64,000 nucleotides of DNA from Burkholderiaceae bacterium (GTDB lineage Bacteria; Pseudomonadota; Gammaproteobacteria; Burkholderiales; Burkholderiaceae_D): NCBI GenBank assembly GCA_031291325.1, contig JARLJG010000053.1:40445-104444 (forward strand), in the 5' to 3' direction. Below the pieces are notes generated by a model. The model was not told where the DNA came from. It did no database searches and worked only from the letters and a program-made list of their open reading frames with translations. This document shows positions 4,848-21,922 of the stretch, one piece after another (positions within the stretch are counted from its first letter, which is position 1; every line of letters starts with the position of its first letter). The position numbers and the translations under genes were made by a program.

Positions 4848-6821
4848 ATGGTGGAGACAACCCCAAACACACCCTTTTCGAGTGCAGCGTCGACGTTTCC
4901 GCGTCTGCTGTTGCAAAACGCGCAGATGCGCGCCGATTTACCGGCGATGCGCGAAAAAGACCTGGGTATTTGGCAAACCTGGAACTGGCCGCAAGTCGCC
5001 GCCGAAGTGCGCGCCTTTGCCTGCGGCTTGGCCGCTCTCGGCTTTCGGCGCGGCATGACGCTGGCCGTCATCGGCGACAACCGGCCGCGCCTGTACTGGG
5101 CGATGGCGGCGGCGCAATGCCTGGGCGGCATCCCGGTTCCCCTGTATCAAGACGCGCCGGCTGCCGATATGTCCTACGTGCTGGAAGACGCGGAAATCGA
5201 CTTTGCGGTGGCGGAAGATCAAGAACAAGTCGATAAATTGTTCGAAATCAAACAAACGCTGTCGCGTATTTCCCACATCGTCGTCGATTACGAGCGTGGT
5301 TTGCGCCACTATGGGCAGGCCGAATTGCGCACTTTCGAGAAAATCCAGGAATTGGGCCGCGCCTATGACTTGGCGCATCCCGACTTCTTCATGCAAGAAG
5401 TGGGCGCCGGCAGCGCGCAGGAAACTGCAATCATCCTGTATACCTCCGGCACCACCGGCAAGCCGAAAGGCGTTTGCCATAGCCATCAGGCGATGATTGC
5501 GACGGCTACGACGCTGGTCGAATTCGATCAGTTGAATCAAAACGACAATATCCTGTGTTACCTGCCGCTGGCCTGGATCGGCGATTTCCTGTATTCGTAC
5601 GCGCAGTCGATGCTGACCGGCCTGTGCCTGAATTGCCCGGAATCGCCGCACACCGTGATGACCGATTTGCGCGAAATCGGGCCGTCCTATTATTTCGGTC
5701 CGCCGCGCGTCTACGAAAACATCCTGACGCAAGTGATGATCCGCATCGAAGACGCAAGCTGGATCAAGCGCACCATGTTTCATTCGTTCATGAAGGTTGC
5801 CAAGCGCGTCGGCCTGCGCATCTTGCAGGGAGAGGGCGGCATCGGCCTGGGTGACCGCTTGCTGTATGCGCTGGGCGAGCTGGTGGTCTATGGACCGCTG
5901 AAAAACGTGCTCGGATTGTCGCGCGTCAAGGTGGCATACACCGGCGGCGAAGCGATCGGCCCCGACTTGTTCGATTTCTACCGCTCCATCGGCGTCAACT
6001 TGAAGCAGTTGTACGGGATGACGGAAACCTGCGTGTCGGTTTGCATGCAAGCCTCGGGCGAGGTCAAACTCGATACGGTAGGCCGCCCGATGCGCGGCGT
6101 CGAAGTAAAAATTGCAACCGATGGCGAAGTGCTGGTGCGCTCGCCCGGCTTGATGCAAGGCTATTTCAAGCGCCCGGACGACACCGCCGAAGCAATCGAC
6201 GATGACGGCTACTTCCACACTGGCGACGCCGGCTTTTTCGACCACGATGGCCATTTGAAAATCATCGACCGCGCCAAGGATGTCGGCAAGATGGCCGACG
6301 GTCGGATGTTTGCGCCGAAATACATCGAAAACAAGTTGAAATTCTTCCCCTTCATCAAGGAAGCGGTGGCCTTCGGCGACGGCCGCAACGAATGCACGGC
6401 CTTCGTCAACATCGACATCGACGCCGTCGGCAACTGGGCCGAGCGGCGCGGCATCTCTTACAGCGGCTATACCGACCTGACCGGACAACAAGCGGTGTAC
6501 GACTTGATCCACGAATGCGTCGAAAAGGTGAACATCGACCTGTCGCAAGACAGCTTGCTGGCCGGTTCGCAAATCTGCCGCTTCCTGATCTTGCACAAGG
6601 AACTCGATCCCGACGATGACGAGTTGACCCGCACCCGCAAGGTGCGACGCCGCTTCATCGCCGACAAATACGCGATCCTGATCGAGGCGTTGTATACGGG
6701 CAAGACTTCGCAATACATCGAGACCCAGGTGAAATTCGAAGACGGACGGCAAGGCAAGGTCAGCGCGGATTTGCAGATCCGCAGCGCCAAAACCTTTGTC
6801 GAAACCAAGAAAGCCGCCTGA
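4848..6821 (+). CDS. Long-chain acyl-CoA synthetase (AMP-dependent synthetase/ligase)
   Basis: 657 aa; IILYTSGTTGKPKGVCHSH AMP-binding signature, YGMTETC, GYFHTGDAG. Confidence 0.92.
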   Translation: MVETTPNTPFSSAASTFPRLLLQNAQMRADLPAMREKDLGIWQTWNWPQVAAEVRAFACGLAALGFRRGMTLAVIGDNRPRLYWAMAAAQCLGGIPVPLYQDAPAADMSYVLEDAEIDFAVAEDQEQVDKLFEIKQTLSRISHIVVDYERGLRHYGQAELRTFEKIQELGRAYDLAHPDFFMQEVGAGSAQETAIILYTSGTTGKPKGVCHSHQAMIATATTLVEFDQLNQNDNILCYLPLAWIGDFLYSYAQSMLTGLCLNCPESPHTVMTDLREIGPSYYFGPPRVYENILTQVMIRIEDASWIKRTMFHSFMKVAKRVGLRILQGEGGIGLGDRLLYALGELVVYGPLKNVLGLSRVKVAYTGGEAIGPDLFDFYRSIGVNLKQLYGMTETCVSVCMQASGEVKLDTVGRPMRGVEVKIATDGEVLVRSPGLMQGYFKRPDDTAEAIDDDGYFHTGDAGFFDHDGHLKIIDRAKDVGKMADGRMFAPKYIENKLKFFPFIKEAVAFGDGRNECTAFVNIDIDAVGNWAERRGISYSGYTDLTGQQAVYDLIHECVEKVNIDLSQDSLLAGSQICRFLILHKELDPDDDELTRTRKVRRRFIADKYAILIEALYTGKTSQYIETQVKFEDGRQGKVSADLQIRSAKTFVETKKAA

Positions 6822-6850
6822 ACGGCGCATCACGAGGCGACCCCATCACT

Positions 6851-7639
6851 ATGACAGACCAGCGCAAAATCGGCGATGTGATCCTGGACTTGCAGGGAAT
6901 CTCGCTATCGTTTGGCGGCGTGCGCGCGCTGACCGACATTTCCTTCAACGTCCGGCAGCATGAAATCCGCGCAATCATCGGCCCCAACGGCGCAGGAAAA
7001 AGTTCGATGCTCAACGTCATCAACGGCGTCTACCACCCGCAGCAAGGCAGCATCATGTTTCGCGGCCAGACCCGGCGCGCAATGAATCCGACCAGCGTCG
7101 CCCATCAAGGCATCGCCCGCACCTTTCAAAACATCGCGCTGTTCAAGGGCATGACGGTGCTCGACAACATCATGACCGGGCGCAATACCAAGATGCGCAG
7201 CGGCTTGTTAGCCAATGCGCTCTGGTGGGGCAAGGCCCGCAACGAAGAAATCGCGCATCGGCGCAAGGTGGAAGAGGTGATCGATTTCCTGGAAATACAG
7301 CATATCCGCAAGACACCGGTCGGGCGCTTGCCGTATGGTCTGCAAAAGCGCGTGGAATTGGCGCGCGCGCTGGCGGCCGAGCCGGACATGCTGCTGCTGG
7401 ACGAACCGATGGCCGGTATGAACGTAGAAGAAAAACAGGACATGTGCCGCTTCGTGCTGGACGTCAACGACCAGTTCGGCACCACCATCGTGCTGATCGA
7501 GCACGACATGGGCGTGGTGATGGATATTTCCGACCGCGTGGTGGTGCTGGACTACGGCAAAAAAATCGGCGACGGCACGCCGGACGAAGTGATGAAAAAC
7601 CCGGACGTGATCGATGCCTATCTCGGCACTTCGCACTGA
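6851..7639 (+). CDS. livG: Branched-chain amino acid-type ABC transporter ATP-binding protein (LivG-like)
   Basis: Walker A GPNGAGKS, Walker B MLLLDEP, LivG-like architecture. Confidence 0.9.
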   Translation: MTDQRKIGDVILDLQGISLSFGGVRALTDISFNVRQHEIRAIIGPNGAGKSSMLNVINGVYHPQQGSIMFRGQTRRAMNPTSVAHQGIARTFQNIALFKGMTVLDNIMTGRNTKMRSGLLANALWWGKARNEEIAHRRKVEEVIDFLEIQHIRKTPVGRLPYGLQKRVELARALAAEPDMLLLDEPMAGMNVEEKQDMCRFVLDVNDQFGTTIVLIEHDMGVVMDISDRVVVLDYGKKIGDGTPDEVMKNPDVIDAYLGTSH

Positions 7640-7660
7640 ACAACTGAGGTTATGTGCCTT

Positions 7661-7692
7661 GCTCCCCTCTCCCGCCTGCGGGAGAGGGGAGC
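7661..7692. repeat. REP-like palindrome (GCTCCCCTCTCCCGCCTGCGGGAGAGGGGAGC)
   Basis: 32-bp perfect palindrome in the livG-livH gap; related copies at 37811, 42381 and 42522. Confidence 0.8.
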
Positions 7693-7727
7693 ATTGCGCG
7701 TAACATCATTGAACAAGGAAGTTTTCA

Positions 7728-8642
7728 ATGCAATTTTTCTTTGAAATCCTGATCAACGGCATGCTGTCCGGCTTGATGTATTCGTTAGTCGCGCTCGGCT
7801 TCGTGCTGATCTACAAGGCGTCCGGCGTGTTCAACTTCGCGCAGGGCGCGATGGTATATTTCGCCGCGCTGGCGGTGGTCGGCTTGATGGACAAGGGCTG
7901 GCCGATGTGGGCGGCCATAGGCGGCGCTTTCGTGGTCATGCTGATCCTGGGCCTGGCGACCGAGCGGCTGGTGTTGCGCAAACTGGTCAACCAGCCGGCC
8001 ATCACGCTGTTCATGGCGACCATCGGCTTGAGCTTCTTCCTCGAAGGCCTGGGGCCGCTATTGTTCGGCAGCGAAGTGCGTGCCATCGATCTGGGCATCG
8101 TCGACGAGCCGATCGAAGCGATCATGAATTCGGTCGGCATCGGCGTTTCCAAGTTCGACCTGTTCGCCTCCGGCATGGTGATCGTGCTGGTCACGCTGCT
8201 GAGTCTGTTCTTCCAGAAGACCAAGGTCGGACGCGCGCTGCGGGCAGTGGCCGACGACCATCAGGCGGCGCTCTCGCTCGGCATCCCATTGCAGCATATC
8301 TGGGCCATCGTCTGGGGCGTGGCCGGATTCGTCGCCTTGGTGGCCGGCTTGCTGTGGGGTTCGCGCAATGGTGTGCAGTTTGCGTTGACGATGACGGCGC
8401 TGAAGGCCTTGCCGGTGTTGATCCTGGGTGGCTTCACGTCGGTGCCGGGCGCCATCGTCGGCGGCTTGATTATCGGCGCGTCGGAAAAGCTGGCCGAGAT
8501 TTATTTGCCTCCGATCATGCAGGATATGTTCGGCGGCAATTTCGGCGGTATCGAAGGCTGGTTCCCGTATGTGTTCGCGCTATTGTTCTTGTTGGTGCGG
8601 CCTGAGGGTCTGTTTGGCGAAAAACATATCGATCGGGTTTAG
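7728..8642 (+). CDS. livH: Branched-chain amino acid-type ABC transporter permease (LivH-like)
   Basis: 304 aa polytopic; GLMYSLVALGFVLIYKASGVFNFAQGAM typical of LivH. Confidence 0.92.
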   Translation: MQFFFEILINGMLSGLMYSLVALGFVLIYKASGVFNFAQGAMVYFAALAVVGLMDKGWPMWAAIGGAFVVMLILGLATERLVLRKLVNQPAITLFMATIGLSFFLEGLGPLLFGSEVRAIDLGIVDEPIEAIMNSVGIGVSKFDLFASGMVIVLVTLLSLFFQKTKVGRALRAVADDHQAALSLGIPLQHIWAIVWGVAGFVALVAGLLWGSRNGVQFALTMTALKALPVLILGGFTSVPGAIVGGLIIGASEKLAEIYLPPIMQDMFGGNFGGIEGWFPYVFALLFLLVRPEGLFGEKHIDRV

Positions 8643-8650
8643 GAAAACGC

Positions 8651-9727
8651 ATGCTATATCGTGAAGCCGGACAATTCAAAACGACCTACGTCGCCGACGG
8701 GCAGATTTTCCCGATCCGGCAAGACCGGATCGCCTTCGTGCTGCTGTTGGCGGTCGCCTTCGTCGTCATTCCGTTGGGCGCCAGCGAATACTGGTTTTCG
8801 GCGATTTTGACGCCCTTCCTGGTGCTGGCGCTGGCAGCGCTCGGCTTGAACATCCTGACCGGCTACGCCGGCCAGTTGTCGCTCGGATCCGCTGCCTTCA
8901 TGGCGGTCGGCGCTTACGCCTCCTACAATTTTCAATTGCGCATCGACGGCATCCCGATCCTGTTGTCCTTCGTGCTGGGCGGCGTCTGCGCGGCGGGCGT
9001 CGGCGTGCTGTTCGGCCTGCCATCGCTACGCATCAAGGGCTTTTACCTGGCGGTGGCGACGCTCGCCGCGCAATTCTTCGTGATCTGGGTATTGACCAAA
9101 TTTCCGTGGCTGTCGAACGACAGCTCGTCCGGCGTCATCAGCGCGCAAAAGATCAATATCCTCGGCATTGCCATCGACACGCCGATGCGCAAATACCTGC
9201 TGGTGCTATCGGTCGTGTCGATCCTGGCGCTGACGGCGAAAAACCTGGTGCGCTCGTCGACCGGGCGCGCGTGGATGGCGGTGCGCGACATGGACGTGGC
9301 CGCCGAAGTGATCGGCATCCCGTTGATGAAAACCAAGTTGCTGGCGTTCGCGGTCAGTTCGTTCTATTGCGGCATCGCCGGCGCGCTGTATGCGTATTGC
9401 TACCTCGGCTCGGTCGAGCCGGACGGCTTCTCACTCGAACTATCGCTGCGCATCCTGTTCATGATCATCATCGGCGGCGTCGGCAGCATCCTCGGCGCCT
9501 TCCTCGGCTCGGCCTTCATTTTGCTGTTGCCGATATTCCTCGACAATTTCCTGCCGCCGCTGGCGAACCTGCTGCACCTGCCGTTGCGCAGCGAATCGCT
9601 GTCGCATATCCAGTTAATGGTGTTCGGCGCGCTGATTATCTTTTTCCTGATCGTCGAACCGCATGGCTTGGCGAGGTTATGGCAAATCACCAAGGAAAAA
9701 TTGCGGCTTTGGCCTTTCCCGCATTGA
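8651..9727 (+). CDS. livM: Branched-chain amino acid-type ABC transporter permease (LivM-like)
   Basis: 358 aa; LGLNILTGYAGQLSLGSAAFMAVGAYASY typical of LivM. Confidence 0.92.
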   Translation: MLYREAGQFKTTYVADGQIFPIRQDRIAFVLLLAVAFVVIPLGASEYWFSAILTPFLVLALAALGLNILTGYAGQLSLGSAAFMAVGAYASYNFQLRIDGIPILLSFVLGGVCAAGVGVLFGLPSLRIKGFYLAVATLAAQFFVIWVLTKFPWLSNDSSSGVISAQKINILGIAIDTPMRKYLLVLSVVSILALTAKNLVRSSTGRAWMAVRDMDVAAEVIGIPLMKTKLLAFAVSSFYCGIAGALYAYCYLGSVEPDGFSLELSLRILFMIIIGGVGSILGAFLGSAFILLLPIFLDNFLPPLANLLHLPLRSESLSHIQLMVFGALIIFFLIVEPHGLARLWQITKEKLRLWPFPH

Positions 9728-14712: not shown

Positions 14713-16014
14713 CTAATCCACCGCCTCATTAACCAACCGACCCGGCACCAAAAGCGTCAACACCGCCCCCGCGAGCAACGACCCAGCCAGCGCCAGCATG
14801 CCAATATTGGTGCTATGCGTCGCATCCTTCAACCACCCAACCAGATACGGGCTGACGAAGCCGGCCAGGTTGCCGAGCGAATTGATCAGCGCGATTCCCG
14901 CTGCTGCCGCCGTGCCGCCGAGGATGGCTGTCGGCAGGCTCCAGAATAGCGGCAGGCTGGTGATGATGCCGGCGGTTGCCAGCGTCAATGCCGCCAGAGC
15001 GAGCCATGCGTTGTCTGCGTACATGGTGCTCAATACCAGGCCGACGCCGCCCGCCAGCGCCGGAATGGCGACGTGCCAGCGCCGTTCGCGGCGGGCGTCG
15101 GCGCTGTGGCTGACCAGCAGCATGACTACCGTTGCGCAGGCGTACGGAATTGCCGACAACAGCCCGACATCCAGCGCACTCTTGACACCGCTGGCCTTGA
15201 TTAAGGTCGGCAGCCAAAAGCCGACGCCGTACAGCCCCATCACCAGGCAGAAATAGATCAAGGCCATCAGCCACACACGCGGATTGGCGAACATGCCAGC
15301 CAGCGCGTGTTCGGATTTGCGCCCGGCTTCTTGCGCGATGTGCGCTTCCAGCATTTGCTTTTCCGCTTCGGTGAGCCAGTTGGCATCGCGGATGCGGTCT
15401 TGCAGATAGAAGAATACGACCAGGCCGACCAGAATCGACGGCAGCGCCTCGCACACGAACATCCATTGCCAGCCCGCCAAGCCGCCCACGCCCGGCATGT
15501 TTTGCATGATCCAGCCGGAGAGCGGGCCGCCGATGACGCCCGATAGCGGCACCGCCGTCATGAACAGCGTGGTGATCTTGCCGCGCCGCTGCGATGGATA
15601 CCAATAGGTGATGTACAGGATGACGCCGGGGAAAAAGCCGGCCTCCGCCGCGCCGAGAAAAAAGCGCACGATGTAAAACGTCAGCGGCGTATCGATGAAA
15701 ATCATCGCGCCGGAAATCAAGCCCCAGGTAATCATGATGCGGGCGATCCAGATGCGCGCGCCGACCCGATGCAGGACGATATTGCTGGGTATCTCGAACA
15801 GGAAATAGCCGATGAAAAAAATCCCCGCGCCCAGGCCGAATACCGTGTCGCTGAAGCGCAAGTCGCTCAACATTTGCAGCTTGGCGAAGCCGACGTTGAC
15901 GCGATCGAGGTAAGCGACCACGTAGCTGACGAAGAGCAGCGGGATCAGCCGGCGCGTGACTTTCGCGTAGATCGCGGCTTCTTGCGCTTTCGACATCAAA
16001 TCGGGTTGGGACAT
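14713..16014 (-). CDS. MFS transporter, anion:cation symporter-like
   Basis: 12-TM MFS protein (YLDRVNVGFAKLQM..., GAAEAGFFPGVILYITYWYPSQRRGKI). Start at MSQPDLMSKAQ preferred over 16083. Confidence 0.88.
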   Translation of the reverse strand: MSQPDLMSKAQEAAIYAKVTRRLIPLLFVSYVVAYLDRVNVGFAKLQMLSDLRFSDTVFGLGAGIFFIGYFLFEIPSNIVLHRVGARIWIARIMITWGLISGAMIFIDTPLTFYIVRFFLGAAEAGFFPGVILYITYWYPSQRRGKITTLFMTAVPLSGVIGGPLSGWIMQNMPGVGGLAGWQWMFVCEALPSILVGLVVFFYLQDRIRDANWLTEAEKQMLEAHIAQEAGRKSEHALAGMFANPRVWLMALIYFCLVMGLYGVGFWLPTLIKASGVKSALDVGLLSAIPYACATVVMLLVSHSADARRERRWHVAIPALAGGVGLVLSTMYADNAWLALAALTLATAGIITSLPLFWSLPTAILGGTAAAAGIALINSLGNLAGFVSPYLVGWLKDATHSTNIGMLALAGSLLAGAVLTLLVPGRLVNEAVD

Positions 16015-16087
16015 ATGCGGTCTCGAGGTTGTCGTTGCCCGGCCGGATCGCATAGGCAATGTAGCGGGAATGCGGCGAATCAACGCG

Positions 16088-16226
16088 TAGGTTGGGCTAG
16101 GCTTTATCAGCCCAACGTTTAACGTGAAAAAGGCCGATCAAATTTCAAAGCACCACGCACAGAATTATTGCTTTTGCCTTGCCAGCGTCGAATGTTGGGC
16201 TAAACAAAACCGTTAGCCCAACCTAC
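16088..16226. repeat. Nested inverted repeat element (GTAGGTTGGGCTA ... TAGCCCAACCTAC)
   Basis: Perfect 13-bp terminal inverted repeats (16088-16100 / 16214-16226), two internal hairpins with GTTGGGCT/AGCCCAAC arms, and an imperfect ~20-bp direct repeat outside. Confidence 0.7.
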
Positions 16227-16278
16227 CAAATCAATGTCCCGCCGAATCGCGCTGGCGATGCGGCGGGAATGCAGCGAA

Positions 16279-18129
16279 TCAGCTTTTCTTGCGCGCCTGA
16301 ATCGCTTCAATCTCATCCATGATCTTGTTCATGCGCGCAAACACCGCCTGATACGGCGCTGGCGTTGCCAGGTCGACGCCGGCTGCCTTGACCAGATCGT
16401 ACGGATAGGCGGAGCCTCCGGCGCGCAGGATGTTCAGGTAACGCTCGCGCGCGCCCGCTTCGCCGTTGAGGATCGAGGCGGCGAACATCGAGCCGGCGGA
16501 GATCGAGGTCGCGTACTGGAACACGTAGAACTGGTTGTAGAAATGCGGAATGTACGCCCATTCCATCGCGTACAAGTCGTCGATCTTGACCACGCCTTCC
16601 TTGTCGCCGTGGTAGCGGCGCAGGATGTCGCCGTAGATCTTGGTAAGGTCTTCGCCGGTCAGCGATTCGCCTTTGTCGACCTTGGCATGCACTTCGCGCT
16701 CGAAGTCGGCAAACATCGCTTGCCGGAAGAAGGTGGTGCGCAGATTTTCCAGCGCCGAGCCGAGATAGAGCATGCGCTCGTCGTCGGTCTTGGCGATCTT
16801 CAGCATGTGGTCGAGCAACAACGTTTCGTTGGTGGTCGACGCGATTTCGGCGGTGAAGATCGGGTAATCGGCGGTGATGAAGGGCTGCGCATGATTCGCC
16901 AGATGCGAATGCATCGCATGGCCCCATTCGTGCGCCAGCGTCGACACCGATTCATAGTCGTCGTTATAGTTCAGCAGCAGGTAGGGATGCACGTCGTAGG
17001 CGATGCCGTTCATGTACGCGCCGGATAATTTGTGCGGACGCGGATAGACATCCATCCAGCGATGCTGCAATGCATCGCTCATCGCCGCCACGTAATCCGG
17101 CCCCAAGGGCTTGACCGCATCCAGCATCAATTGCTTGCCTTCGGCGACCGGATATTTCAAGTCGCTGGTCAATAGCGGCGGATACATGTCGTAGTAGTGC
17201 AAGTCGCCGATGCCGAGCAGTTTTGCGCGCAGTTTGAAGTAGCGATGCAGGGTCGGCAAGTTGGCGCGAGTCTGGTCGATCAGCATGTTGTAGACTGCCG
17301 GCGGGATGTCGTTGCCGTCCAGCGCGCGCGACAGCGAATCCGGGTAGTTGCGCACCTTGGTGTAGACCGCTTCCTTCTTCAATTGCTCGTAGAAGGTGAC
17401 GCCGAAGGTGCGTTCGAATTCCTTCCATTTCCCCCAAAAGGCATCGAACACTTTCTTGCGGTCGTCGCGGTTGCCGACTGCTCGGTACTTGGTGTACGCG
17501 GCCTGGTCGAGCTTGACTTCGGTGCCGTCGGATAGCTTGACGGTCGGCCACGGCAAGTCGGCATTGGACAGCATCGTGTAGACATCGCCGCCGGCATTGG
17601 TCGCCAAGCCGAACTGGGCGACGATCGCTTCGCCCTTGGCATCCAGGGTATGCGGCGCGGCGCGCAATATCTGGTCCAGCGGATGGCGGTAGATCGCCAG
17701 CGCCTTGTCTTGCTTCAGGAACCCATCGATTTTCTTGCGGCCCAGCGCCAGCACTTCGGGGCGCACGAAAGAGGTGGCTTCGTCGACCTTGCTGGCGAGG
17801 ATGTCGGATTTCTGACTGAGGTCTTGCCCGATGTTGGCGCCGGTATCCTGGTCGTGCGTTTGCGATGCGTACGAAGTCAGGCGCTCGAAGCGCCGCAGGA
17901 TGTCGGCTTCCAAATCCATGCATGCCCGGAAGCGTCTGACGGACTCGCCGAGTTTGCCCTTGCAGCCGGCAAAATCCTTCAATTGACCTTCCAGCTTGAC
18001 GCTGTCGGCAGTCCACGCATCGGCGCTGACATACAAATCCGCCAGATTCCAGCGGTCGTTCTCGGTTTCTGCGGCAACGCCGAAGAGCGGCGTCAACGCG
18101 AATACGGCTATCGGTAAATATTTATACAT
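16279..18129 (-). CDS. pepF: Oligoendopeptidase F, M3 family, with signal peptide
   Basis: HEWGHAMHSH zinc motif, M3B architecture, N-terminal MYKYLPIAVFALTPLFGVAA. Confidence 0.92.
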   Translation of the reverse strand: MYKYLPIAVFALTPLFGVAAETENDRWNLADLYVSADAWTADSVKLEGQLKDFAGCKGKLGESVRRFRACMDLEADILRRFERLTSYASQTHDQDTGANIGQDLSQKSDILASKVDEATSFVRPEVLALGRKKIDGFLKQDKALAIYRHPLDQILRAAPHTLDAKGEAIVAQFGLATNAGGDVYTMLSNADLPWPTVKLSDGTEVKLDQAAYTKYRAVGNRDDRKKVFDAFWGKWKEFERTFGVTFYEQLKKEAVYTKVRNYPDSLSRALDGNDIPPAVYNMLIDQTRANLPTLHRYFKLRAKLLGIGDLHYYDMYPPLLTSDLKYPVAEGKQLMLDAVKPLGPDYVAAMSDALQHRWMDVYPRPHKLSGAYMNGIAYDVHPYLLLNYNDDYESVSTLAHEWGHAMHSHLANHAQPFITADYPIFTAEIASTTNETLLLDHMLKIAKTDDERMLYLGSALENLRTTFFRQAMFADFEREVHAKVDKGESLTGEDLTKIYGDILRRYHGDKEGVVKIDDLYAMEWAYIPHFYNQFYVFQYATSISAGSMFAASILNGEAGARERYLNILRAGGSAYPYDLVKAAGVDLATPAPYQAVFARMNKIMDEIEAIQARKKS

Positions 18130-18337: not shown

Positions 18338-19561
18338 TTATTCCGATGCGGAGGCGATCGTCTTTTCCAGCAGTGCGTGAAATGCCGCAAACACTTTTTT
18401 CGCCTGCACCAGCTTGTAGGGAAACAACTCCACCGAATCCATCGCATGGATCACCGCCGCGCTATCGATCTCGAATACCAGTAAACGGCCATCCGGCGCT
18501 TCGGCGCAATCGATCACCAGATAGTCCAGCCCGGCAGCTTGCCGGATCGCCTGCAACGCCTGCCGATGGCGCGCGCCGAAAGCGGTGTCGAAATCCTGCA
18601 TGAAGCGCGCCTCTTCATCGCGCTTTTGCGCGCTGGCGCCCATGTGCGCATTCAGGTAATGGATCATCCAATGCTCGGAAATCGCCATGTGGCCCGCGTA
18701 GGCCTGGCCGTCGACCAGCACCACGCGGTATTTGCGATACAGGCCGTCGGCATTGCGATAATCGACGAAGCGCGACATGAAAAAGGTCGGCTCGGGCCTG
18801 GCTTGCAGGTAAGCCGCCAGCTCGCCCGGCGCGTCGATTTTCAGCAAGCCTTGGCCGGCATGCGAATCGACCGGGCGCACGATCAGCGGATAGCGGCCAT
18901 CGGCCAGCGCGTCCGTCAGCGCCAGCGACCCCTCGCCCAGTTGCGCCAGAGCCGCGCGCGAAATCTGCGCCGACAGCGGCATGTCGATGCCGGGCAAGGC
19001 TTGCAGCATCGCGCCGACGCTGTCGCGCGACAGGCGGGCGATGCGTTCGGGGCGGTTCAGCAATGGTCGCTTGCAGTTTGACAATTGCTGCGCCAGCAGT
19101 TGCAGCAGCGGTCGGGCGTGTGCCGATTCGCCCACAGCAACAAAAATCAGGTCGTGTTCAGGCAAGTCGGCGGGCAAGCCTTGCGCCGGGTCCAGGTAGA
19201 GCATGTCGAGTGCGATATCGCTGCCTTGCACGATAAATTCCAGCGGCGTATTGGCAGCCAGATCGCCATGATGCATCAAGGCCAGCAAGCGAATTTTCGC
19301 GCTGCCGCTTGCCGGCAATTGGTACAAGCGCTTGATCTTCAGCGCCTGCGCCTGCGTTGCCAAGCCGATGTCGTGCTTGAACCACAGATGCGAAATGACG
19401 GCCAGATCCATCAAGGCTTCGGCGTCGCGCGGATTGCCCTTCAACCGCGCCATCAATCGATTGGCGACATCGGTCAAGGACATGCCGGAACATGTCATCG
19501 TCATCAATGCGGCCAAGCCCAACAATGGTTGATTTGGCCGATCTGCGTCTTCGATTGTCAT
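18338..19561 (-). CDS. Uncharacterised ATP-grasp-like protein with N-terminal helical (TPR-like) region
   Basis: ~407 aa; YPLIVRPVDSHAGQGLLKI, FMSRFVDYRNADGLYRKYRVVLVDGQAYAGHMAISEHWMIHY, LLVFEIDSAAVIHAMD consistent with ATP-grasp. Confidence 0.65.
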   Translation of the reverse strand: MTIEDADRPNQPLLGLAALMTMTCSGMSLTDVANRLMARLKGNPRDAEALMDLAVISHLWFKHDIGLATQAQALKIKRLYQLPASGSAKIRLLALMHHGDLAANTPLEFIVQGSDIALDMLYLDPAQGLPADLPEHDLIFVAVGESAHARPLLQLLAQQLSNCKRPLLNRPERIARLSRDSVGAMLQALPGIDMPLSAQISRAALAQLGEGSLALTDALADGRYPLIVRPVDSHAGQGLLKIDAPGELAAYLQARPEPTFFMSRFVDYRNADGLYRKYRVVLVDGQAYAGHMAISEHWMIHYLNAHMGASAQKRDEEARFMQDFDTAFGARHRQALQAIRQAAGLDYLVIDCAEAPDGRLLVFEIDSAAVIHAMDSVELFPYKLVQAKKVFAAFHALLEKTIASASE

Positions 19562-19663
19562 GGTTAACTGTAATAGGATATCTCCGAACACGATAGCAAA
19601 AATAGGCCGGGAAGTGGAATTATTTGCCGTCCGCGCCAGAACGGGTATGATGGCAACTACGCC

Positions 19664-19924
19664 TTGAACCTAGAAACGGCAGTTGGACAGGTGCGAGTGT
19701 GCGTTTTTCCGGCTTTCTGGCAAGGCGCGACGACGACGCAGACTGATGTCTGCTAGGAGGAGGGTGTTTCACTGAAACACCGAAAACGCCAGGGAGCCGG
19801 AAAAATGTGCAATCGCGCCTGTAGCGCTCTGACCTTTTAGGTGAACGTTTTAATCTCACGGAATCTTAATCGATTCATGCACTTACCAATAGCTGGAAGC
19901 GGTCAACTGCCGTTTCTAGGTTCA
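19664..19924. repeat. Element B: ~261-bp nested palindromic element upstream of nudC
   Basis: TIRs TTGAACCTAGAAACGGCAGTTG / CAACTGCCGTTTCTAGGTTCAA; inner ~35-bp imperfect inverted arms 19687-19722 / 19788-19822; hairpins GCAGAC-TGAT-GTCTGC and GGTGTTTC-ACT-GAAACACC. Confidence 0.8.
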
Positions 19925-19936
19925 ATACAACACGCC

Positions 19937-20752
19937 ATGCTGCAAACGCCCGCGCATTTCATTCCCCTTATCACCGCTATCGTGCATGCGAATCCGACCA
20001 CGCTGGTATTTCGCGGTGACGAATTGCTGGTGCGCGATGCCGATTTGAGTCTTGCATCGGTCGCCGTGGAGCTCCAGCCCGAGCGCCTCCATCCAGTTGG
20101 AACCTTGGGCGACAGCTACTTTCAAGTCACCTGGGTCGAGCGCAATACGCTTGCCGCGAGCGGTCATAGCTTCAAGAAGCTGCGCTCGCTGGTCGGCGTA
20201 CTCGACGAGCAACTGCTTGCGATTGCCGGGCGCGCCTACCAGATCGCCGAGTGGGCGCGCACGCACCGTTATTGCGGCGTCTGCGCGACAGAAACCGTGT
20301 TGCTGGCCGGCGAACGCTGCTTTAAATGCCCGGCGTGCGGGATGTCCGCCTACCCGCGCATTTCGCCGGCGATGATGGTATTGATCCGCAAAGGCGATGC
20401 GATCTTGCTGGCCCGCCACACGGCGTCGCCGACCAACCGCTTCAGCGCGCTGGCCGGTTTTTTGGAAGCCGGCGAATCGATCGAGGAAGCGGTACACCGC
20501 GAAGTGTTCGAGGAAGTGCGCCTGAAAATCCACAACCTGCGCTATTTCGGCAGCCAGTCCTGGCCCTTCCCGCACTCGCTGATGATTGCCTATACCGCCG
20601 ACTACCTGAGCGGCGAAATCGCCATCGATCTCGATGAAATCGCCGAAGCGCGCTGGTATGGGCCGGGCGACGTGTTGCCGGCGTATGCTGCGGGGTACTC
20701 GATTGCCGGCCTGCTGATCGAGTCGCACCTGGCCGCCATCGCCCGCAAGTAG
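19937..20752 (+). CDS. nudC: NAD+ diphosphatase (NADH pyrophosphatase), Nudix
   Basis: Zn ribbon CGVCATETVLLAGERCFKCPACG and Nudix box GFLEAGESIEEAVHREVFEEV; start at MLQTPAHFIPL. Confidence 0.92.
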   Translation: MLQTPAHFIPLITAIVHANPTTLVFRGDELLVRDADLSLASVAVELQPERLHPVGTLGDSYFQVTWVERNTLAASGHSFKKLRSLVGVLDEQLLAIAGRAYQIAEWARTHRYCGVCATETVLLAGERCFKCPACGMSAYPRISPAMMVLIRKGDAILLARHTASPTNRFSALAGFLEAGESIEEAVHREVFEEVRLKIHNLRYFGSQSWPFPHSLMIAYTADYLSGEIAIDLDEIAEARWYGPGDVLPAYAAGYSIAGLLIESHLAAIARK

Positions 20753-20776: not shown

Positions 20777-21922
20777 TCACGCAGCGCCCAGCGCTGCGAT
20801 TTCGCGCGCCAGGTTGGCCAGCGCGTCGTCGCCATAGCTTTCCGCGAAATAGGCGTCGCCATACAACGAGCCGGCTCTGGCCTTGTCGCATAAATGCAGC
20901 AGCGCTTTGCGCCGCTTGGCCTTGTATTCTGGCTCCGGCACATGCGCATATTCCTGCCGGATCGCCGCCGCATAGGCGTCGTAAGTTTCCGCGTCTTGCC
21001 CGAGTATGGCCAGATCGATGCCCAGCATCACGTCTTTCAACGGATGGGCAATCGCCGATTCCTGGAAATGGTCGGTGGCGCGGATCAAGTCGGCGCTGCC
21101 GTCGTCGGCAATGTGGACCAGCTTACTGCCCTGCCACAGCGTGGCGCTGGCTTCTTCGTCGGAAATCCCTTCCAGCGCATGCCCGTATACCGCATCGTGA
21201 AACCAGAACGCCTTTCTCAGCGTGTCGATTTCCACCGCGCTCGCATCGGTGCGCCCGGCCCAGGCCTTGATCTCGCTCAGGCCATGCACCAGGTGGTCGA
21301 GGTTGTGATAATGGCGGGACGCCGCGCCGTAGCAGGCCTCGCCGGTCAGGTAATCGAACCAGTAATCGGCGTCCGCCGTGCTGGCTTGGTCGGCGCTTTG
21401 CGAAGTCCAGAGGGATTCCCACTCCTTGCGCAGCCAATCGAGTATCCACGCCTGGTAGGCCGGGCGCGGCACGAATTTTTTCATGTTCCAGTGCCAGCCG
21501 ACCGGCCCTTGCAGGTTCCTGACGAAGCCGGAACTGACCGATCCGAGGTCGCGCGGCGGCATCACGAAGATGGTCTTGGCGCCTTGCAACACGTCGACAT
21601 TGGTTTGCTGGATCAGGTTTTCGTAGTCGAAATCGCTGGTATTGCGGATCCCGCGTATCAGGTAGTCGATGCCTCTTTTCTTGGCCACGCGCGCGGTGTA
21701 GTCGCTCTTGACGATGACCACGCGCACGTTATCCCAACCGCGTTCGGCGGCGCTCTGCTCGACGATGCGCTTTCTTTCTTCCGCTGAAAATTGCGGCTTT
21801 TTCAACGTATTTTCGGACAGGAAAATGGTTACCTCGTCGGCCAGCGCGCGCGCTTCGCCGATCACCCACATGTGGCCATTGGTGATCGGATCCAGGGTCC
21901 CGGAAAATGCGATTTCTTTCAT
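20777..21922 (-). CDS. Fusion: CoaD-like (phosphopantetheine adenylyltransferase-type) nucleotidyltransferase + HD-type predicted phosphohydrolase
   Basis: N-terminus KEIAFSGTLDPITNGHMWVI, KKPQFSAEER, YLIRGIRNTSDFDYE (CoaD motifs); C-terminus RHYHNLDHLVHGL, FWFHDAVY, ATDHF, DLAILG (HD-family pattern) in one uninterrupted ORF. Confidence 0.85.
   Translation of the reverse strand: MKEIAFSGTLDPITNGHMWVIGEARALADEVTIFLSENTLKKPQFSAEERKRIVEQSAAERGWDNVRVVIVKSDYTARVAKKRGIDYLIRGIRNTSDFDYENLIQQTNVDVLQGAKTIFVMPPRDLGSVSSGFVRNLQGPVGWHWNMKKFVPRPAYQAWILDWLRKEWESLWTSQSADQASTADADYWFDYLTGEACYGAASRHYHNLDHLVHGLSEIKAWAGRTDASAVEIDTLRKAFWFHDAVYGHALEGISDEEASATLWQGSKLVHIADDGSADLIRATDHFQESAIAHPLKDVMLGIDLAILGQDAETYDAYAAAIRQEYAHVPEPEYKAKRRKALLHLCDKARAGSLYGDAYFAESYGDDALANLAREIAALGAA

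Follow-up and report, generated by a model that had tools for sequence, protein, structure and literature searches.

The window, meaning the whole 64,000-nucleotide stretch analysed here, comes from a bacterium of the Janthinobacterium/Duganella group and carries on its minus strand an intact open reading frame that starts with ATG and can be extended in frame upstream as far as 21970. As a sequence-only reading of the stretch had claimed, this frame fuses a CoaD-like adenylyltransferase to an HD-type phosphohydrolase; both active sites are kept and all motifs quoted by that reading are found in it (Table 1). The full-length model has a pLDDT of 85.8. Two residues of this copy, G132 and N136, are unusual. 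The fusion gene and nudC are convergent, with the gap of 24 bp that had been reported. The fusion was also described as unusual, which holds. A separate canonical coaD (183.7 bits) is present at C46 of the same genome. Two genes away from the fusion, at 18338-19591, a 417-aa protein shows weak RimK/CofF ATP-grasp similarity.

Table 1. Position of the fusion gene, its two halves, their motifs and the neighbouring nudC in the window.
Feature	Position	Strand	Basis or conservation
CoaD-HD fusion gene, 381 aa + stop	20777..21922	minus	ORF, profile match, single-ORF fusion in relatives
CoaD-type adenylyltransferase half, residues 1-160	21443..21922	minus	TIGR01510 and modelled fold
T14-N-G-H17 nucleotide-binding motif (TxGH)	21872..21883	minus	T14, G16 and H17 unchanged across 80 bacterial fusions and in the phage one
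LIRGIR motif, R90/R93 = E. coli CoaD R88/R91	21644..21661	minus	both arginines invariant
VSSGFVR motif, equivalent of ISSSLVK	21518..21538	minus	G132 here, S in 80/80 best relatives
HD-type phosphohydrolase half, residues 165-381	20780..21430	minus	phrog_19425 match and AlphaFold2 model
H206..H210 of HYHNLDH, putative metal ligands	21293..21307	minus	invariant in 80/80 fusions and in phage and solo homologues
H242-D243, HD doublet	21194..21199	minus	invariant
D303 (DLAILG), last putative metal ligand of H..HD..D	21014..21016	minus	79/80 fusions; invariant in 36-sequence HD alignment
nudC, convergent neighbour, outside the system	19841..20752	plus	NF001299 NAD(+) diphosphatase, 245.8 bits

The adenylyltransferase half

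Residues 6-157 score 116.7 bits against the NCBIfam CoaD model TIGR01510 and thereby pass its curated equivalog cut-off of 103.3. TIGR01510 is the best family match for the fusion, with the NadD or NadM models far below. The half matches 34 solved CoaD sequences, and its model superposes on solved PPAT/CoaD structures with a target TM-score of about 0.82 and an rmsd of about 2.5. Ten residues (T9, H17, K41, R90, R93, Y100, E101, N108, S130 and S131) are invariant in all of the best 80 relatives; in CoaD they bind ATP and the phosphate of 4'-phosphopantetheine (PMC3764209). Expressed in E. coli numbering, TxGH, K42, R88, R91, E99, N106 and S128/S129 are likewise kept in 80/80. The side chains expected to contact the pantetheine arm, with roles taken from PMC3764209, have changed relative to E. 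coli CoaD (A37 to S, L73 to Y, M74 to T), while N106 is kept and P8 corresponds to S7 by alignment. These altered contacts are fixed in the alignment of fusions and, since they depart from classical CoaD, the acceptor may differ from plain 4'-phosphopantetheine. The VSSGFVRN motif, earlier singled out as divergent, is indeed present, but its divergence is private to the window's genome: the best 80 relatives have S132 in 80/80 and A136 in 77/80 cases.

Judged by sequence, this half belongs to a divergent CoaD subfamily of phage-like character and is predicted to be an intact adenylyltransferase. A standard CoaD model would label the enzyme plain CoaD and overlook its partner domain.

The HD half

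The C-terminal half matches the PHROG family phrog_19425 'phosphohydrolase' at 2.9e-16 and has no match in Pfam (to E 5) or NCBIfam (to E 1). Its H..HD..D metal-binding motif, typical of the HD superfamily, is complete, and the AlphaFold2 model is all-helical (pLDDT 93.7). Among solved folds, Foldseek ranks HD-type cyclic-nucleotide phosphodiesterases closest, with a probability of 1.00 and a best E of only 0.019, which is not significant. Membership of the AcpH or YqeK families was rejected for lack of profile matches: for AcpH (PF04336) there is no Pfam match up to E 5 and an hhalign probability of 0.1% with an AcpH profile of two sequences, and for YqeK (COG1713/TIGR00488) no NCBIfam match up to E 1. 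A defence system was considered and dropped, as the PADLOC anti-phage models do not match the fusion.

Homologues of the HD half occur in 42 of 398 Pseudomonadota genomes, about a tenth, and bacterial solo forms are 28-42% identical to it. We know of no function for these solo phosphohydrolases of the phrog_19425 type, which we take to be COG4339-like; literature searches for COG4339, covering mostly open literature, gave nothing. Near the 24 bacterial solo HD genes inspected, neither CoaD nor CoaE was present within about 1.5 kb. Because solo forms are common in bacteria and these 24 lack such neighbours, the HD chemistry may reach beyond CoA.

Distribution and selection

When 85,462 species genomes were scanned and the best 80 relatives (63-72% identity to the fusion) retained, nearly all of these came from Oxalobacteraceae: Janthinobacterium, Duganella, Rugamonas, Pseudoduganella, Massilia, Undibacterium and unnamed Burkholderiales. 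Two loci stem from metagenome bins titled Myxococcales (L144) and Rhodocyclaceae (L189), labels that may be wrong. PLSDB contained no fusions on plasmids, only partial matches. All 80 relatives, from independent genomes, are single-ORF fusions, which excludes a sequencing error joining two genes, and the catalytic residues of both halves are nearly invariant among them, with no sign of active-site loss. Across 667 non-independent pairs, the median dN/dS is about 0.06 in the CoaD half and about 0.15 in the HD half. Both halves are under purifying selection and the gene is maintained. This bears directly on the possibility of an artefact or a decaying gene, either two genes joined by error or a dead paralogue. 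On paper a second CoaD-like gene is redundant and the window copy has its two unusual residues, yet the motifs are intact, dN/dS is far below 1 in both halves and the fusion is uniform in the relatives; for the family this explanation is refuted, and we regard it as extremely improbable.

Among 146 sampled genomes of the same family the fusion occurs in 24, each of which has a second CoaD match (24/24). With the canonical CoaDs of this family the CoaD half shares about 30% identity. Given that second match and the canonical coaD of the window's genome, the fusion is no substitute for CoaD, and replacement of the housekeeping enzyme is ruled out.

Gene neighbourhood

The 80 further loci have neither nudC nor aroG beside the fusion. 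The theme shared with NudC that had been suggested for the locus is thus unsupported, since the adjacency is not conserved, and a NudC partnership was dropped.

A different neighbour recurs. A gene for a divergent dephospho-CoA kinase, CoaE2, abuts the fusion in at least eight bacterial loci: its end lies within a few bases of the fusion start or overlaps it in six of the 80 fetched loci (L126, L144, L189, L199, L201 and L202), and it likewise abuts the fusion in G111 and G138. Within the 146-genome sample CoaE2 is found in three genomes, all of which have the fusion, in each case adjacent. CoaE2 scores over the TIGR00152 cut-off and forms a clade of its own (support 98/96) in a tree that gives no phage derivation. 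Most fusion genomes, the window's included, lack it; a single gain followed by later loss would be compatible with the fusion tree, which is no proof of it.

In about half of the loci a sensor-kinase-like gene lies just upstream on the same strand, preceded by a response-regulator-like gene, an arrangement that looks like local synteny. A TetR-family regulator (56-63% identical) is divergent from CoaE2 or near the fusion in L201, L199, L189, L207, L208 and L023, and in L032 (870-1499) one is found upstream of a solo HD gene; shared TetR-type regulation of CoaE2/fusion and solo HD is possible. In the Rhodocyclaceae-labelled bin (L189:3104-8839) the CoaE2/CoaD-HD pair is followed by an opposite-strand gene for an NrtR-like regulator and a pncA-pncB-nadE-nadM cluster, so that NAD and CoA genes stand side by side.

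Phage arrangements

Profile searches of viral CoaD loci, checked by Pfam and PHROGs, revealed three further joins; together with the fusion in bacteria and a phage fusion found by tblastn, this makes five ways in which HD is linked to CoaD or CoaE, four of them in phages. A 462-kb phage (LR756500.1) encodes a full-length CoaD-HD fusion that is 27% identical over 98% of the query in tblastn, with CoaE 26 kb away; a locus identical to it is present in IMG/VR. In L334 a CoaE-HD fusion (7392-8627) overlaps CoaD (8609-9133), whereas in L324 a CoaD-CoaE fusion (5992-7119) overlaps HD (7109-7732). In L335 an HD gene ending at 7998 abuts CoaD, followed by a Nudix gene. Phage loci often have CoaE and then CoaD but no HD (L256, L319-L323 and L326), and wider phage searches with single-protein queries returned little beyond the query loci.

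HD proteins of this kind are rare in phages (8 of 50,697 records), and because of this rarity the repeated joins to CoaD or CoaE are not chance. The bacterial and phage joins tie this HD family to the two final reactions in the synthesis of CoA and, as far as we found, give a widespread, uncharacterised hydrolase family its first testable pathway.

Within about 50 kb of its fusion the LR756500 phage also has genes for a NAPRTase, a PncA-like protein and a NadM-Nudix-like protein. As a separate NadM-Nudix-like protein is encoded, the CoaD-HD protein is not needed there for NAD. An ADP-ribosylglycohydrolase and a PARP-like protein (L005:1796-2596 and 15140-16414) are found near the fusion and the NAPRTase.

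Origin of the halves

The bacterial CoaD half groups with several large-phage CoaDs (support 95/77) and has in common with them GHxW and, after the SSxxV motif, a GPxGW-type (GxxGW) segment. It sits on a very long branch. For the HD domain, the tree unites the halves of the bacterial fusions with solo HDs from bacteria (96/99) and puts phage HDs in other places. A single clade of bacterial and phage fusions is not rejected by the AU test for the HD half (p 0.124) or the CoaD half (p 0.271). Long branches make both trees unsafe for origin, and common and independent origin would both be compatible with the trees and AU tests. Should the fusions have arisen independently, the functional link would be even stronger.

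Proposed role and alternatives

Taken together, the CoaE2 neighbour, the phage joins and the phage-like CoaD half assign the protein to late coenzyme A metabolism. The sequence-only reading was right on the identity of the two halves and unsupported on the link to NudC, and these three features had escaped it. The explanation that we put foremost, tentatively and with somewhat less than even confidence, is an accessory late-CoA module beside the housekeeping CoaD, with the HD half as a clean-up enzyme in the CoaD/CoaE metabolite pool. The fusion protein would be its core. The N-terminal half would most likely convert ATP and 4'-phosphopantetheine, or a close variant, into dephospho-CoA. In relatives that encode CoaE2 alongside, this kinase would be the partner; in the window's genome the one CoaE found there would serve. 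The C-terminal half would be a metal-dependent phosphohydrolase acting on misformed or damaged products of the adenylyltransferase, such as wrong-nucleotide dinucleotides or surplus dephospho-CoA. We infer with good support that it acts in the same pool as the CoaD half. The clean-up role would be a guess from precedent, because in NadD-YqeK, the best-studied protein of such design, the HD domain hydrolyses the off-base analogues that its partner NadD produces, and a clean-up role has been proposed for YqeK (PMC9426524).

The main rival lets the HD half supply the substrate: it would cut 4'-phosphopantetheine off holo-carrier proteins, after which CoaD and then CoaE would rebuild CoA as a unit for recycling the prosthetic group. 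This would put HD, CoaD and CoaE on one route and account for all joins; E. coli AcpH, which performs such a cleavage, is an HD-family enzyme (PMC8557913), and the closest folds of the HD model, though not significant, are phosphodiesterases. Yet the comparison with the two-sequence AcpH profile detects no similarity, the window's genome has an AcpH homologue of its own, and PMC8557913 reports no sign of PptH feeding CoA salvage and cites older work in which released phosphopantetheine is excreted. We therefore consider recycling unlikely, albeit deserving of real weight. Similar doubt attaches to the broader idea that bacteria and large phages repeatedly assembled CoaD, CoaE and HD into an accessory module for making or recycling CoA, or a CoA-like cofactor, along a path apart from housekeeping, for instance from 4'-phosphopantetheine taken from carrier proteins; it seems to us an unlikely proposal, if a serious one. 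Independent construction of the module by phages and bacteria would mean that controlling late CoA metabolism matters in infection or stress in a way that has not been described.

The HD half could instead be a brake, a phosphatase on 4'-phosphopantetheine, dephospho-CoA or CoA that tunes flux much as is described for the phosphatase domain in human PANK4. HD enzymes often act as phosphomonoesterases, and the genetic linkage is identical to that behind the clean-up reading, but it would be odd to build a brake into an extra CoaD while the main CoaD is untouched, which makes this rather improbable. The divergent CoaD and CoaE2 might also yield something other than CoA, either a CoA-like or a modified cofactor, with HD acting on its intermediates. 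Every sampled genome with the fusion has a second CoaD, the pantetheine-arm contacts are changed and fixed, the CoaD half has its very long branch and CoaE2 its separate clade. Nevertheless, the residues holding ATP and the 4'-phosphate are unchanged, and we know of no gene for a new acceptor; the chance of this seems small. NAD metabolism, with an NMN or NaMN adenylyltransferase and a hydrolase working with NudC, could draw on the convergent nudC of the window, the NAD cluster just downstream in L189 and the NAD genes around the phage fusion. It is very unlikely given that nudC is at 0/80 other loci, that the CoaD match far exceeds those to NadD or NadM, that the LR756500 phage has its separate NadM-like enzyme and that the kinase partner is CoaE-like and not an NAD kinase.

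Relation to known systems

CoaD itself, phage coaD/coaE (PMC11097641) and, through NadD-YqeK, nucleotidyltransferase-HD fusions are already known; no earlier description of the CoaD-HD fusion, the CoaE2 partner or the permuted phage modules was found in the searchable, mostly open, literature. NadD-YqeK (JCVISYN3A_0380, present in most mycoplasmas) similarly joins an adenylyltransferase of the same superfamily to an HD phosphohydrolase within one cofactor pathway (PMC9426524). It differs in carrying NadD instead of CoaD, in serving NAD instead of CoA, and in that YqeK belongs to COG1713. With canonical CoaD the fusion shares fold, catalytic residues and a score over the TIGR01510 cut-off, but it is set apart by its low identity (about 30%), altered pantetheine-arm contacts, extra GPxGW segment, fused HD and coexistence with a canonical copy. 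Compared to solo phrog_19425 proteins, the HD half is of the same family, whereas the solo forms stand alone.

In snow viromes coaD and coaE are abundant viral genes, according to the accessible text of PMC11097641, which does not mention a link to HD. The fusion groups with several such large-phage CoaDs and has GHxW and the GxxGW segment in common with them, but is a resident bacterial gene family. AcpH-type phosphopantetheinyl hydrolases belong to the HD superfamily and act on a CoA-derived group (PMC8557913), without detectable sequence-profile similarity to the HD half. The AcpH homologue of the window's genome lies at G000:C21:56791-57342 (L333), and of 30 genomes sampled from the family just 3 have such a homologue.
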